Assembly: GCA_025998755.1 (NCBI GenBank)
Contig: AP024674.1
Span: 2,186,162 to 2,250,161, forward strand
Direction: 5' to 3'
Source: Armatimonadota bacterium
GTDB taxonomy: Bacteria; Armatimonadota; UBA5829; DSUL01
DNA: 64,000 nucleotides
The translations under genes and the position numbers were made by a program. The notes beneath the pieces are model-generated. The model ran no database searches. It was not told the DNA's origin and worked only from the letters and a program-made list of their open reading frames with translations. Shown in pieces: positions 6,866-29,798 of the stretch; position 1 is the stretch's first letter, and each line of letters opens with the position of its first letter.

Positions 6866-6907
6866 CGGACCGGGAATCTTCAGGTTTTCCCCCACAATCC
6901 CGGCGCC

Positions 6908-6935
6908 TTCAACTTTCAACCTTCAACTTTCAACC
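6908..6935. repeat. Solo heptad array: four TTCAACY units
   Basis: TTCAACT-TTCAACC-TTCAACT-TTCAACC in exact 7-base register. It is the reverse complement of the GGTTSAA units at 27575-27658. No four-helix-bundle gene is next to it. It lies just beyond the 3' end of the beta-helix gene. Confidence 0.85.
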
Positions 6936-25734: not shown

Positions 25735-26724
25735 ATGGCGCTCAGAATAGGCATTGTGGGTGTGGGAAACATCGGCAGCATCCACGCGCAGTGCTACAAG
25801 GACGATCCCCGGTGCGAGGTGGTGGCCTGCTGCGACATCATCCCGGAAAAGGCCGACGCCGGGGCGGCGAAGTTCGGCGGCAAGGCCTTCTACAGCGTCC
25901 GGGAGATGCTGGACAGCGGCATCGAGCTGGACGCATGCAGCATGTGCACCCGGGGAGAAGAGAACGGCGGAGACCACTTCACGCCCACTATGGAGCTTCT
26001 GGAGGCTGGCATCCCGGTGCTGGGCGAGAAGCCCATCTCCAACAACGTGGAGGAGGGGAGGCAGATGGTGGCGCTGGCGGAATCGAAGAAGATCCCTTAC
26101 GCCATCAACCTGAACCACCGCTTCACCCCCGCCGCGCTCCGCGCCAAAGAGTGGGTGGAGAGCGGTCGCCTGGGGTCGCTGTATATGATCAACATGCGGA
26201 TGTGGATCAACAACCCGGTGGAGACATCCCCCTGGTTCCACCTGCGCGCCCTGCACCCCCACTCCTTCGATGTGATGCGGTATTTCTGCGGAGACATCAA
26301 GAGCGTGGCCTGCTTCCTGAAGAAAGGGGACGGGCGCATCTGCTGGTCCAACGCCCAGATCCTTCTGCATTTTGAGAACGGCGTGGTGGGCAATCTTACC
26401 GGCAGCTACGATGCGGGCGGCAGCTACGGGCTGGAGAAGTGCGAGGTGGTGGGCTCGCGGGGGCGGTTCGTGCTGGACGACGCGTGCGAGCACCTGTCCT
26501 TCTACCCGCGGGATTCCATTGAATACGAAACCTACAGCTACCTGGGCGGGATGCGCAGCTTCAGCGAGACCTTCGCCAGCCGCATCCGCAAATGGGTGGA
26601 CCAGCTGGAGGCGAAGGTGCCCTACGACCAGATAGACGGGTCCGGCAGGGACGCTCTCAAGGTGCAGGAGGTCATCGAGGCCGCAATTCGGAGCTGGGAG
26701 ACACACTCCATCGTTGATCTCTGA
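25735..26724 (+). CDS. Gfo/Idh/MocA family oxidoreductase (copy A)
   Basis: A 329-residue NAD(P)-dependent sugar oxidoreductase, cytoplasmic. The Rossmann motif is MALRIGIVGVGNIGSIHAQ; VLGEKPISNN carries the conserved Lys-Pro, and NLNHRFTPAA, GSYDAGGSYG and GRFVLDDA follow. The ATG at 25735 has GAGG upstream. The protein is clearly paralogous to the one at 30580-31587 (shared NHRFTPAA, QIDGSG/EIDGSG and IVxL endings). It begins the cluster with the isomerase, sulfatase-fold and sulfotransferase-like genes. Confidence 0.9.
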   Translation: MALRIGIVGVGNIGSIHAQCYKDDPRCEVVACCDIIPEKADAGAAKFGGKAFYSVREMLDSGIELDACSMCTRGEENGGDHFTPTMELLEAGIPVLGEKPISNNVEEGRQMVALAESKKIPYAINLNHRFTPAALRAKEWVESGRLGSLYMINMRMWINNPVETSPWFHLRALHPHSFDVMRYFCGDIKSVACFLKKGDGRICWSNAQILLHFENGVVGNLTGSYDAGGSYGLEKCEVVGSRGRFVLDDACEHLSFYPRDSIEYETYSYLGGMRSFSETFASRIRKWVDQLEAKVPYDQIDGSGRDALKVQEVIEAAIRSWETHSIVDL

Positions 26725-26769
26725 GGTTCCCGGCACTCTGTCGCAAAACGCGTCAAGGAGACTGTGGAG

Positions 26770-27573
26770 ATGATCAAGTTCGGCGTGAACTCGGTGCTGT
26801 TCGCGGGTTTCGACTTCGCAACGGCCGCCCGGCACATCCGCCTGGCGGGATACGACGGAGTGGAGATATCGGCCATCAAGGGGATGTGCGAGCATCTGGA
26901 CCTGGACAAATGGCGCTCGCAGGCCCGGGAACTGAAGGCCATCGTGGAGGACAACGAGCTGGAGTTCCTGGCGATGGAGGAAGCGGCGCTGGACGAAGAC
27001 CGCCTGATGAAAGCATTCGAGGCGGGCGCGGAGATCGGCATCCCTGTCATCAATATCGGGCCGGGCGGACAGTCGGACAACGATGAGGACTTCGAGCGTC
27101 AGACCGACCTGATGGCGAAGATGGCGCAGGAGGCGGAGGGTTTCGGGGTGACGTTGTGCGTCAAGGCGCACGTCGGCGCTTGCATCTACAACACCCAGAC
27201 GACCCTGCGCGCAATGCGCAAGATCAACTCTCCCGCCTTCGGCATAGATATGGATCCGAGCCATGTCTACCGCGCCGGCGAGAACCCGGAAGAGGCGCTT
27301 CCGCGGGTGCTTTCGCGCACTCGCCACATCCACATCCGCGACTGCAAGGGGCGCGGCCCCTCTCCCGGCTCACCGTTCGATCAGACCTGCGGACGGGGCG
27401 ACATTGATCTTGCCGGTTACTGCCGCGCCATGGTGCAGGGCGGCTACTCCGGCCCGGTGGATCTTGAGATCATAGGCGCGGGAGAACTGAGCCTGCCCGA
27501 AGTCTCCATGATCGCCGCCGAATCCCGCGGCTACCTCCGGGCAGTGATGAGGGCGATAGGAGGGGAGGATTAG
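26770..27573 (+). CDS. Sugar phosphate isomerase/epimerase (xylose-isomerase-like TIM barrel)
   Basis: A 267-residue metal-dependent isomerase/epimerase of the AP endonuclease-2-like TIM barrel. Motifs: MIKFGVNSVLFAG, RLAGYDGVEISA, VINIGPGG, VTLCVKAHVGACIYNT, FGIDMDPSHVYRAGENP, HIHIRDCKGRG and VDLEIIGAG, which bring metal ligands (Glu, Asp, His) to the barrel mouth. AAGGAG lies nine bases before the ATG at 26770. It follows the oxidoreductase after 45 bases; together they probably convert an inositol- or keto-sugar-type substrate. Confidence 0.88.
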   Translation: MIKFGVNSVLFAGFDFATAARHIRLAGYDGVEISAIKGMCEHLDLDKWRSQARELKAIVEDNELEFLAMEEAALDEDRLMKAFEAGAEIGIPVINIGPGGQSDNDEDFERQTDLMAKMAQEAEGFGVTLCVKAHVGACIYNTQTTLRAMRKINSPAFGIDMDPSHVYRAGENPEEALPRVLSRTRHIHIRDCKGRGPSPGSPFDQTCGRGDIDLAGYCRAMVQGGYSGPVDLEIIGAGELSLPEVSMIAAESRGYLRAVMRAIGGED

Positions 27574-27574
27574 G

Positions 27575-27658
27575 GGTTGAGGGTTGAAGGTTCAAGGTTC
27601 AAGGTTGAAGGTTGAAGGTTGAAGGTTCAAGGTTCAAGATTCAAGATTCAAGGTTCAA
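27575..27658 (+). repeat. Heptad array of twelve GGTTSAA-type units
   Basis: Twelve consecutive 7-base units in exact register: one GGTTGAG, then GGTTGAA, GGTTCAA and GATTCAA variants, changing mainly at the fifth base. It starts two bases after the stop of the isomerase gene and precedes the four-helix-bundle gene. Its reverse complement reappears on the other side of that gene. Confidence 0.95.
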
Positions 27659-27698
27659 GGTCAAGAATTGCAGCCTCTCGGGCAGGGCGTTCTTGACC
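27659..27698. repeat. Hairpin at the inner end of the heptad array
   Basis: GGTCAAGAA (27659-27667) and TTCTTGACC (27690-27698) form a perfect 9-base stem with a 22-base loop. It directly abuts the last heptad and lies 43 bases before the start of the four-helix-bundle gene. Confidence 0.7.
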
Positions 27699-27741
27699 CA
27701 GCGAATCACCATGCCAGACCTGTAGGCGAAGGGCGATAGGC

Positions 27742-28203
27742 GTGCAGCATTCTTCAAATGCGCAACCAGACGAATTCCTGTTCGGATTCGAGCGGCTCGA
27801 CGGCTGGCAAAAGGCGGTGGAGCTTGCTGGAGATGTCTACGCCGCCACGCGTGAGCTTCCGCGAGAGGAACTCTTCGGCCTGTCTCTTCAGATGCGCAGA
27901 GCTGCGGTCTCGGTCGCTGCGAACATTGCCGAAGGCACGTCAAGATCCTCCGGAAAGGATCAGGCAAGATTCTTCGAGATCGCATTTGGCTCTCTCAGCG
28001 AACTCGCCACCCTGTTGCTCATAGCCGGCGGGCAGGGATGGCTGAATTGCGAGAAAACCCGCACACTGAGAGATAGGCTCGAGAGAATATCGCGAATGCT
28101 CTCGGGACTTCGCCGTAGCGCCTGCAAGAAGGTTCAGCAGTCCGAGCAGCACCTGGTACATCAGCGTTGTTCTTCTACCCACTCAGAGGGAGAAGAGATC
28201 TGA
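27742..28203 (+). CDS. Four-helix-bundle protein (S23 / 23S rRNA intervening-sequence family)
   Basis: A 153-residue protein. ERLDGWQKAVELAGDVYAAT, FGLSLQMRRAAVSVAANIAEGTSR and ARFFEIAFGSLSEL are the marks of the S23/IVP four-helix-bundle family. Members occur inside 23S rRNA intervening sequences, as free genes, and as the Avd accessory protein of diversity-generating retroelements. No rRNA and no reverse transcriptase are near here. The C-terminal 40 residues are longer and more polar than usual. GTG start with a weak AGGGCGATAGG upstream. It sits between inverted heptad arrays and interrupts a metabolic cluster. Confidence 0.85.
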   Translation: MQHSSNAQPDEFLFGFERLDGWQKAVELAGDVYAATRELPREELFGLSLQMRRAAVSVAANIAEGTSRSSGKDQARFFEIAFGSLSELATLLLIAGGQGWLNCEKTRTLRDRLERISRMLSGLRRSACKKVQQSEQHLVHQRCSSTHSEGEEI

Positions 28204-28316
28204 TGATATATTATGACGGTTGGATTTCATGGCACCGAAGCCGGTTTTTCTTTACTACTGCTTTACTGAAGGGCCATTGTGCACGTGAGACGGCATAAGA
28301 TCTTCAATCAATATCC

Positions 28317-28351
28317 TTCAACATTCAACGTTAAACTTTAAACATAAAACC
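28317..28351 (-). repeat. Inverted, degenerate heptad array of five TTMAAMN-type units
   Basis: TTCAACA, TTCAACG, TTAAACT, TTAAACA and TAAAACC follow in exact 7-base register. They are inverted relative to the twelve-unit array at 27575 and enclose the four-helix-bundle gene. The stretch 28200-28350 is noticeably richer in A and T than its surroundings. Confidence 0.75.
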
Positions 28352-28394
28352 ATCGCCTGGCCATCCGGCGGCGATCTGGAAAGCATAACCCAAG

Positions 28395-29798
28395 ATGAAA
28401 CAACCCAATCTCATCCTTTTCGGTATTGACAGTCTGCGGGCGGATCACATGAGCCTGTATGGCTATCATCGCCTCACCACGCCGCACATAGACCGGTTTG
28501 CGGCGGGGGGGACGGTGTTCACGCGCTGCTTCAGCCCGCACATTCCGACAACCCCCGGCTACTCCTCCATGTTCACCGGGATGGATGTCTTCGGCACCGA
28601 TGTAGTGGCGTTGCGCCACGAAGGGCCCCTGGGCAGTCACCTGAAAACTCTGGCGGAGATCCTGGGGGAGCGCGGCTACAACACCACGTGCGTGGGGTTC
28701 AGCGGGAATGTCGCGTCGCGGGGGTTCCAGAACTACCTGGACTTCAGCGGCTGGGGGGAGTATTCAGCCGGCCGCAGCCCAAAGGCCGAGAACCTGAACG
28801 CGGTCGCGATCCCGGAGCTTAAGCGGCTGGCCGCGGATGGCAAGCCGTTCTTCCTGTTCCTGCGGCATATGGACCCGCATTCGCCCTATCTGCCTCCTCA
28901 GCCCTTCGAGCGCATTTTCTACGGCAAGGACGAGTTCGATCCGGAGAACAACTCGCTTGAGCCAGTGCTCTCGTTCAAACCGTTCCGGGACTATTTCGCG
29001 AGCTGGTTCCCACCGGGCGTCCGGGACAAGGATTACATCATCGCGCAGTATGACGGGGCCGTGGCGTATATGGACGCCTGCATCCAGAACCTGTTCACGC
29101 TGATTGCTGATCTCGGGCTGGAGGAAGACACTCTGGTGGTCATAAACTCCGACCATGGCGAAACCCTCTACGACCACGAATGCTGGTTCGACCACCACGG
29201 ATTATACGATTGCACGCTGACCGTGCCGCTGATCTTCCGCTTCCCGGGACGGGTTCCGGAAGGCTTGCGGTTCGACCATTACTGTCAAATCAAGGACGTG
29301 ACGCCCACCATTCTGGATCTGATGGGCATCGAGACCGACATCGCCTTCGATGGACGCAGCCTGGTCCCCCTGATGCGGGGCGAGTGGCGCGAGCCCGAGC
29401 CGGAGTTCTACATCACCGAGTGCACCTGGATGCGCAAGCATGGCTGGCGAACACCGGAATGGAAGCTGATCGTTGCTCTGGAGCCGGACATTCACTTCAA
29501 GCCACCGGTCGAATTGTATAACCTGATCAAAGATCCGGAGGAAAACCGTAACCTGGCCGACGAAGAGCCCGGTGTCGTTCGAATGCTGAAAGAGAGGATG
29601 GAGGCTCACATTGCCCGGCGCGAAAAGGAGACCGGGCGCACAAACCCCATCTTCACGAACCTCAACTGGCACGGCAGAGGGGTGCAGTTCAAGACCTCGC
29701 AGGAAGCATACGACACACTCTACATCGGATCGCCCAGCGAGGCGCGCGACTTGCAGGCCAAGGAGCTCCAGACCCAGCGTGGACAGAAGGAGCTCTGA
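28395..29798 (+). CDS. Sulfatase-fold (alkaline phosphatase superfamily) hydrolase without the formylglycine site
   Basis: A 467-residue cytoplasmic protein (no signal peptide). The metal-binding opening NLILFGIDSLRADHMS and the late motif VINSDHGETLYDHE are those of type I sulfatases. Where sulfatases have C/S-x-P-S-R followed by A-S-L-L-T-G, this protein has TTPGY followed by SSMFTG: Thr52 stands at the formylglycine position and Tyr56 replaces the Arg. It may therefore act as a Thr-nucleophile phosphodiesterase or phosphotransferase rather than a sulfatase. Six bases separate it from the sulfotransferase-like gene. Confidence 0.85.
   Translation: MKQPNLILFGIDSLRADHMSLYGYHRLTTPHIDRFAAGGTVFTRCFSPHIPTTPGYSSMFTGMDVFGTDVVALRHEGPLGSHLKTLAEILGERGYNTTCVGFSGNVASRGFQNYLDFSGWGEYSAGRSPKAENLNAVAIPELKRLAADGKPFFLFLRHMDPHSPYLPPQPFERIFYGKDEFDPENNSLEPVLSFKPFRDYFASWFPPGVRDKDYIIAQYDGAVAYMDACIQNLFTLIADLGLEEDTLVVINSDHGETLYDHECWFDHHGLYDCTLTVPLIFRFPGRVPEGLRFDHYCQIKDVTPTILDLMGIETDIAFDGRSLVPLMRGEWREPEPEFYITECTWMRKHGWRTPEWKLIVALEPDIHFKPPVELYNLIKDPEENRNLADEEPGVVRMLKERMEAHIARREKETGRTNPIFTNLNWHGRGVQFKTSQEAYDTLYIGSPSEARDLQAKELQTQRGQKEL

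Follow-up and report, generated by a model that had tools for sequence, protein, structure and literature searches.

An S23/IVP gene between inverted heptad arrays in an Armatimonadota genome: probably a member of a widespread class of small mobile elements

Intervening sequences (IVSs) with an S23 open reading frame were described for Coxiella, also for Leptospira and others, and have long been suspected to be selfish or mobile (PMC4990558). They lie in 23S rRNA, from which RNase III excises them. S23 genes occur commonly and are mostly annotated just as 'four helix bundle protein'; to our knowledge, no catalytic function of S23 is known. Homology of S23 to Avd of diversity-generating retroelements was reported as well (PMC10053308). 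Heptameric repeats are described for Xanthomonas (GGGAATC) and Nostoc (GGGGATT) (PMC4692102), for Beggiatoaceae (TAACTGA) (PMC4679880) and for Geobacter metallireducens (GGACCGG) (PMC2700814), and STRR hairpins for cyanobacteria (PMC2670836). A link to S23 was found neither in PMC4692102 nor in PMC4679880. Likewise, no paper tying S23 genes to tandem arrays was found in the open-access literature searched.

RAYTs are Y1 (HUH) transposases, and each REP is one short palindrome. MITEs and small insertion sequences are short, have inverted ends, duplicate their target and form gene-less derivatives.

The window, i.e. the whole stretch of DNA that was analysed, comprises 64,000 nucleotides of an Armatimonadota bacterium (GCA_025998755.1, contig AP024674.1, positions 2,186,162 to 2,250,161, forward strand). 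Between a sugar-isomerase-like gene (TAG stop at 27571-27573) and a sulfatase gene (start at 28395) an element of about 0.78 kb is located (27574-28351, forward strand, with presumed end bases), recognized by the intergenic gap as compared with relatives. The left end is a 5' array of twelve GGTTSAA units on the G/T-rich strand (27575-27658, forward strand), recognized by TRF (score 104-119), by its register and by predicted RNA pairing. Nine of the twelve units are exact; GGTTGAG stands first and GATTCAA occurs twice, all in exact 7-base register. For the best 84-bp stretch 71 of 77 period-7 identities were counted, and none of 20 first-order Markov resamples of the window exceeded 41. A stem-loop with a 9-bp stem, GGTCAAGAA...TTCTTGACC, adjoins this array (27659-27698, forward strand); its left arm reads as a possible decayed extra heptad. 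The right end is a 3' array of five degenerate inverted heptads (TTCAACA, TTCAACG, TTAAACT, TTAAACA and TAAAACC; 28317-28351, reverse strand), and the pairing reaches back to 28299. The GC content of 28204-28351 is 38.5% in contrast to 63.6% for the window, a value equally low in 1 of 1277 windows.

The enclosed gene (27742-28203, forward strand) is intact and encodes an S23/IVP four-helix-bundle protein of 153 amino acids. It starts with GTG, with AGG a few bases upstream. The match to TIGR02436 (109.3 bits, cut-off 24, E 1.1e-31) covers model positions 2-107 of 109, and no other gene of this genome matches the model. A relative with solved structure is XCC0516 of Xanthomonas campestris (PDB 2gsc), matched at 1.4e-21. 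In the preliminary description of this locus the twelve-unit array in 7-base register, the five reverse-complement units, the abutting 9-base stem, the S23/IVP-type gene and the AT-rich right end had been noticed from the letters, and all of them were found again. The distance from the stop codon had been given as two bases; the left array begins one base after the TAG.

As in IVSs, one open reading frame of this protein family is enclosed by complementary ends capable of forming a long stem; in the predicted RNA fold the two arrays of the window pair mutually with 38 pairs (27582-27627 with 28299-28351). In contrast to IVSs, the element lies between protein genes and is bounded by tandem arrays; no rRNA was matched within 26500-29500. 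The relation to Avd is a remote homology (NF033474 at 7e-4, below its cut-off; PMC10053308), and, unlike in diversity-generating retroelements, no match for a reverse transcriptase (RVT_1) was detected in the window genome. According to the preliminary description neither an rRNA IVS nor Avd of a retroelement is present here, but IVSs are not irrelevant to the element. S23-encoding IVSs, in which the same protein family is encoded between inverted repeats, are probably the same kind of element, situated in 23S rRNA hairpins.

The arrangement is not restricted to the window. For TIGR02436 loci of the phylum the left flank was compared with the reverse complement of the right flank, and a score of at least 30 was reached for 53 of 71 loci; none of the 68 shifted controls and only 10 of 355 pairs of swapped flanks reached it. 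In a sample from many phyla, including Methanophagales archaea, 54 of 80 loci had an inverted flank match (controls 0 of 73); for both samples together the shifted controls gave 0 of 141. About a quarter to a third of the loci are without clear arrays, and no rRNA was found around 20 such loci. The preliminary description had proposed to look for inverted GGTTSAA arrays beside S23 genes of related genomes. Exact arrays of this kind were detected at none of 30 other S23 loci of the phylum, and this test fails because the unit differs between elements. Inverted tandem repeats of differing units were found there, of 7 bases, sometimes of 8, 9 or 10, with period 7 as the commonest (158 of 216 scored arrays). 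Some S23 lineages show period 10 or 12 in place of 7 (L080, L081, L079, L042, L052, L082). As judged from the sequences, the conserved feature is the inverted pair of matching short tandem arrays, with a unit that varies by element.

The median outer span of the elements is 477 bp. Pairing from arm to arm was predicted for 96.5% of 115 elements and for 7% of the controls. In 92% of the elements G prevails over C in the 5' arm. A strand asymmetry was also observed among 121 S23 elements, with 5' arms that are G- and purine-rich and poor in C. The unit is matched between both ends of one element and is common to related proteins. Among 121 elements the mean fraction of shared 6-mers increased from 0.014 at less than 45% protein identity to 0.79 at more than 80% (Mantel 0 of 1000), where some of the most similar pairs represent one insertion carried by related plasmids, but L177, L186 and L251 are at different sites.

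For the window site, empty counterparts were identified. The isomerase and sulfatase genes are 14, 32, 51 and 96 bp apart in four relatives of the class, compared with 824 bp here by the same measure; hence, the site is empty in these relatives. In two other relatives the gap of about 865 bp is filled by other sequence. Two class members (L092, L055) have S23 elements of their own beside these same two genes, at different positions. The comparison of orthologous loci had been proposed in the preliminary description; with plasmids, empty sites without arrays were found in addition.

Insertion takes place between genes, and in two clean cases a 5-bp target duplication was read. Plasmid C of Trichormus variabilis is about 97.5-98% identical to plasmids of Nostoc linckia, Tolypothrix and Aulosira and differs by an insert of about 0.43 kb. 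The empty site is AAAAAGTAATTAACAAATAAATATG; the filled site consists of AAAAAGTAAT, the insert (array, S23, inverted array) and GTAATTAACAAATAAATATG, with GTAAT as target duplication. The second case is Nostoc ATCC 53789 compared with two C052 plasmids (about 90-91% identity), with the target duplication TTCTA. Both inserts include the arrays, and both targets reach across the stop codon of the gene upstream. These duplications were read in the two plasmid elements only, the relatives of the window being too distant for base-exact ends. A blind search for target duplications at 118 loci gave no excess, probably due to decayed outer array ends; such duplications can be read from empty sites alone.

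At further sites the gene is also missing in relatives (cas10|cmr3, nrdB|nrdA, tra and a site neighbouring an integrase), with less clear ends. The same was observed, with exact ends unreadable, for Anabaena 90 versus Dolichospermum, Picosynechococcus 7003 versus 7002, Nostoc edaphicum versus Calothrix and Nostoc C052 versus C057. The carA|carB site of Xanthomonas was rejected as an empty site; its gap holds other single-gene cassettes. These cassettes of similar length differ by Xanthomonas species (L260, L309-L337), and one of them is an S23 element. Direct evidence of movement comes from elements at unrelated sites of Nostoc, Aulosira, Trichormus and Scytonema plasmids, which are 78-81% identical in DNA over a length limited to about 0.42 kb.

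In 54 of 91 elements, no more than 10 bp separate the start of the 5' arm from an upstream stop codon on the same strand. Stop codons are frequent in the repeat units and the gaps are short, so that such starts can reflect selection instead of targeting. At 69 loci the element has the same direction as both neighbours; antisense insertions exist as well. Three elements of cyanobacterial plasmids are situated within CRISPR-Cas operons (L179, L180 and L183; cas10|cmr3 once and cas6|cas4 twice).

Gene-less arrays with the unit of the window element were found in the same genome. A solitary array (GTTGAAAGTTGAAGGTTGAAAGTTGAA; 6906-6935, reverse strand), overlooked in the preliminary description, reads as a remnant or a gene-less derivative, as far as can be told from its letters. 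Its neighbours are a dus-like gene and a convergent gene, whose 3' ends face it from either side. Two more are located elsewhere, at C1:239352-239453 and C1:500567-500625. The former is followed by a decayed inverted array (C1:239351-239540, corresponding to L022:3352-3540) and is predicted to fold on itself; it is therefore regarded as a gene-less pair. This pair lies directly 3' of an imuB-like stop codon, in an apparent imuB/dnaE2 mutasome operon. A sample of 464 kb of this genome (400 kb and the window) contained three period-7 arrays with a score of 40 or more, and each of them carries the unit of the S23 element.

In Xanthomonas, gene-bearing and gene-less forms can be compared between genomes. 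The GGGAATC heptad was published as a repeat that forms G-quadruplexes, left without explanation; X. campestris was reported to have about 70 inverted pairs of it (PMC4692102). The single S23 element of Xanthomonas vasicola (G237) lies at accB|accC and has CGGGAAT arrays, and many GGGAATC arrays and pairs are found elsewhere in this genome. At accB|accC the sequence matches through the S23 element in 31 of 35 Xanthomonas genomes, and the remaining four have a gene-less CGGGACC pair at this site. Among these four, about 146 hits of CGGGACC were counted in G268 and about 106 in G267; five genomes of the GGGAATC kind gave none. The only S23 gene of G268 is located at carA|carB and has CGGGACC arrays at both ends. 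In some genomes, gene-less pairs with the unit of the S23 element accumulate. Their unit follows that of the resident element, with exceptions: to a second gene-less family of G268 (CGGGATT type) no S23 gene corresponds, and the genomes G263, G272 and G267, which carry gene-less pairs, have no S23 gene at all. A six-mer test for splitting the two unit families was not discriminating, and the units were read directly instead. Within accB|accC the heptad unit differs by clade (L252-L255), as if it had been replaced in place or the site had been hit repeatedly.

The gene-less pairs look like non-autonomous copies. The preliminary description had regarded arrays without a gene as an argument against a mobile element if they were equally frequent and if empty sites were lacking. 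Such pairs exist, but they have the appearance of derivatives, and empty sites were found.

In these respects S23 elements resemble REPIN/RAYT systems: per genome there is one gene-bearing element and many short, mostly intergenic matching pairs without gene. Pairs of this kind were found in the window genome (L022, together with the same-unit arrays) and in the Xanthomonas genomes G237 and G268. In contrast to RAYTs, S23 is a four-helix bundle; the ends are 7-mer arrays whose unit varies by element, and both clean insertions show target duplications of 5 bp. The suggested similarity to REP/RAYT holds for the gene-less pairs; a mobilization in trans by a RAYT-type Y1 transposase finds no support. 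With MITEs and small insertion sequences, S23 elements have shortness, inverted ends, target duplication and gene-less derivatives in common. They differ by the lack of a recognizable transposase and of a terminal sequence conserved across elements. Published heptameric repeats are, like the arrays described here, 7-bp intergenic tandem arrays, often in inverted pairs, and the Xanthomonas unit is that of the accB|accC S23 element; however, they were published as repeats of unknown function.

We conclude that the element consists of an S23 gene within two inverted arrays of a short unit, mostly of 7 bp, which are part of the insert. That it is a mobile element with the arrays as its ends, as the preliminary description had supposed, is very likely: inverted arrays flank most members of the family, are missing at empty sites and occur as gene-less pairs of the same unit. 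The fuller account, which counts the window locus among the copies of a widespread class of small mobile elements moved by way of an S23-bound hairpin, is considered probable. The arrays, as single-stranded DNA or as RNA, would form one long hairpin, and an S23 oligomer would bind the hairpin of its own unit specifically. Together with a nuclease and a polymerase not encoded by the element, S23 would copy or move this hairpin, and in trans also short gene-less hairpins of that unit, into staggered breaks close to the ends of genes. The window copy would have been inserted one base past the stop codon of the isomerase gene. A unit-specific action of S23 in trans is favoured, with some reserve, while any particular chemistry of the movement is doubtful.

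Four other explanations were considered. The first regards S23 as cargo: a host transposase, of the Y1/RAYT type or another, moves hairpins with suitable ends, and S23 only stabilizes or regulates them. Y1_Tnp is enriched in the S23 genomes of the phylum (85 of 103 versus 76 of 134; Fisher p 2e-5, OR 3.6) and was present in all 16 checked genomes with at least seven S23 copies, although this correlation is confounded by genome content and phylogeny. Since Y1 is commoner in S23 genomes, help by Y1 is possible in some hosts. However, no PF01797 gene was found in the window genome, and 14 S23-bearing genomes from the same phylum have neither Y1 nor a reverse transcriptase; thus, neither protein is a general requirement. 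Furthermore, the end sequences are too variable for one fixed recognition sequence, and the unit tracks the S23 protein. The 5-bp duplications of the two clean insertions also argue against cargo; we know of no Y1 element that makes them. Altogether, this explanation is unlikely.

Still less probable is a retroelement, in which S23, as a homologue of Avd (PMC10053308), recruits a reverse transcriptase in trans, so that the hairpin RNA is reverse transcribed and inserted. The predicted RNA hairpin agrees with this idea, as does the tendency of the elements to read with the upstream gene and to start near its stop. Besides the window genome, however, RVT_1 gave no match in many genomes with multiple copies, among them G069 (11 copies), G116 (13) and G188 (9).

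The arrays might also be older than the genes, i.e. S23 genes sit in, or were captured by, heptad repeats born by slippage, without any movement. Gene-less arrays exist and the repeat number varies, as this would predict. Against it stand the empty sites without arrays, the inverted orientation and common unit of the end arrays, whole elements of about 80% DNA identity at unrelated sites and the S23-element unit in the other arrays of the window genome. We consider it very improbable. A regulatory or operon-linked cassette serving neighbouring genes, e.g. of CRISPR or sugar metabolism, is least credible of all, as the position inside operons, often co-directional with both neighbours (69 loci), and the '23S rRNA IVP' among repeat-associated genes in a figure of a 2023 CRISPR survey (PMC10910872) are opposed by unrelated neighbours at different sites (cas, nrd, acc, car, tra, integrase), orthologous operons without the element and antisense insertions. 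The entry in that survey may be explained by the elements within cas operons mentioned above.

The favoured reading, a mobile element with locus-specific arrays, might be extended. S23 elements could form a self-contained class of transposons, in which a small four-helix-bundle protein without known catalytic motif recognizes arrays of a co-evolving unit and spreads its gene as well as gene-less heptad hairpins, and of which the heptad repeats of many bacteria and the IVSs are products; we regard this as a tentative proposal that is slightly more doubtful than not. The heptads of Nostoc, Geobacter and Beggiatoa and the STRRs look like further products by analogy, the link itself having been examined for Xanthomonas and for the heptads of cyanobacterial plasmids at S23 genes. 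It is the element class that is new. The protein family was known already, as was the suspicion of its mobility within rRNA, and a stricter reader could group the class with the IVS kind.

The location of most S23 genes in a mobile unit with array ends gives this protein family a biology. It also suggests where the heptameric repeats of Xanthomonas, and perhaps those of Nostoc, Geobacter and Beggiatoa, come from. The element seems to form a link between IVSs and the heptads of Xanthomonas and possibly of these other bacteria, and the old question of IVS mobility becomes directly testable. Ends made of locus-specific tandem arrays, combined with the absence of a recognizable transposase, would point to an unfamiliar way of DNA movement.
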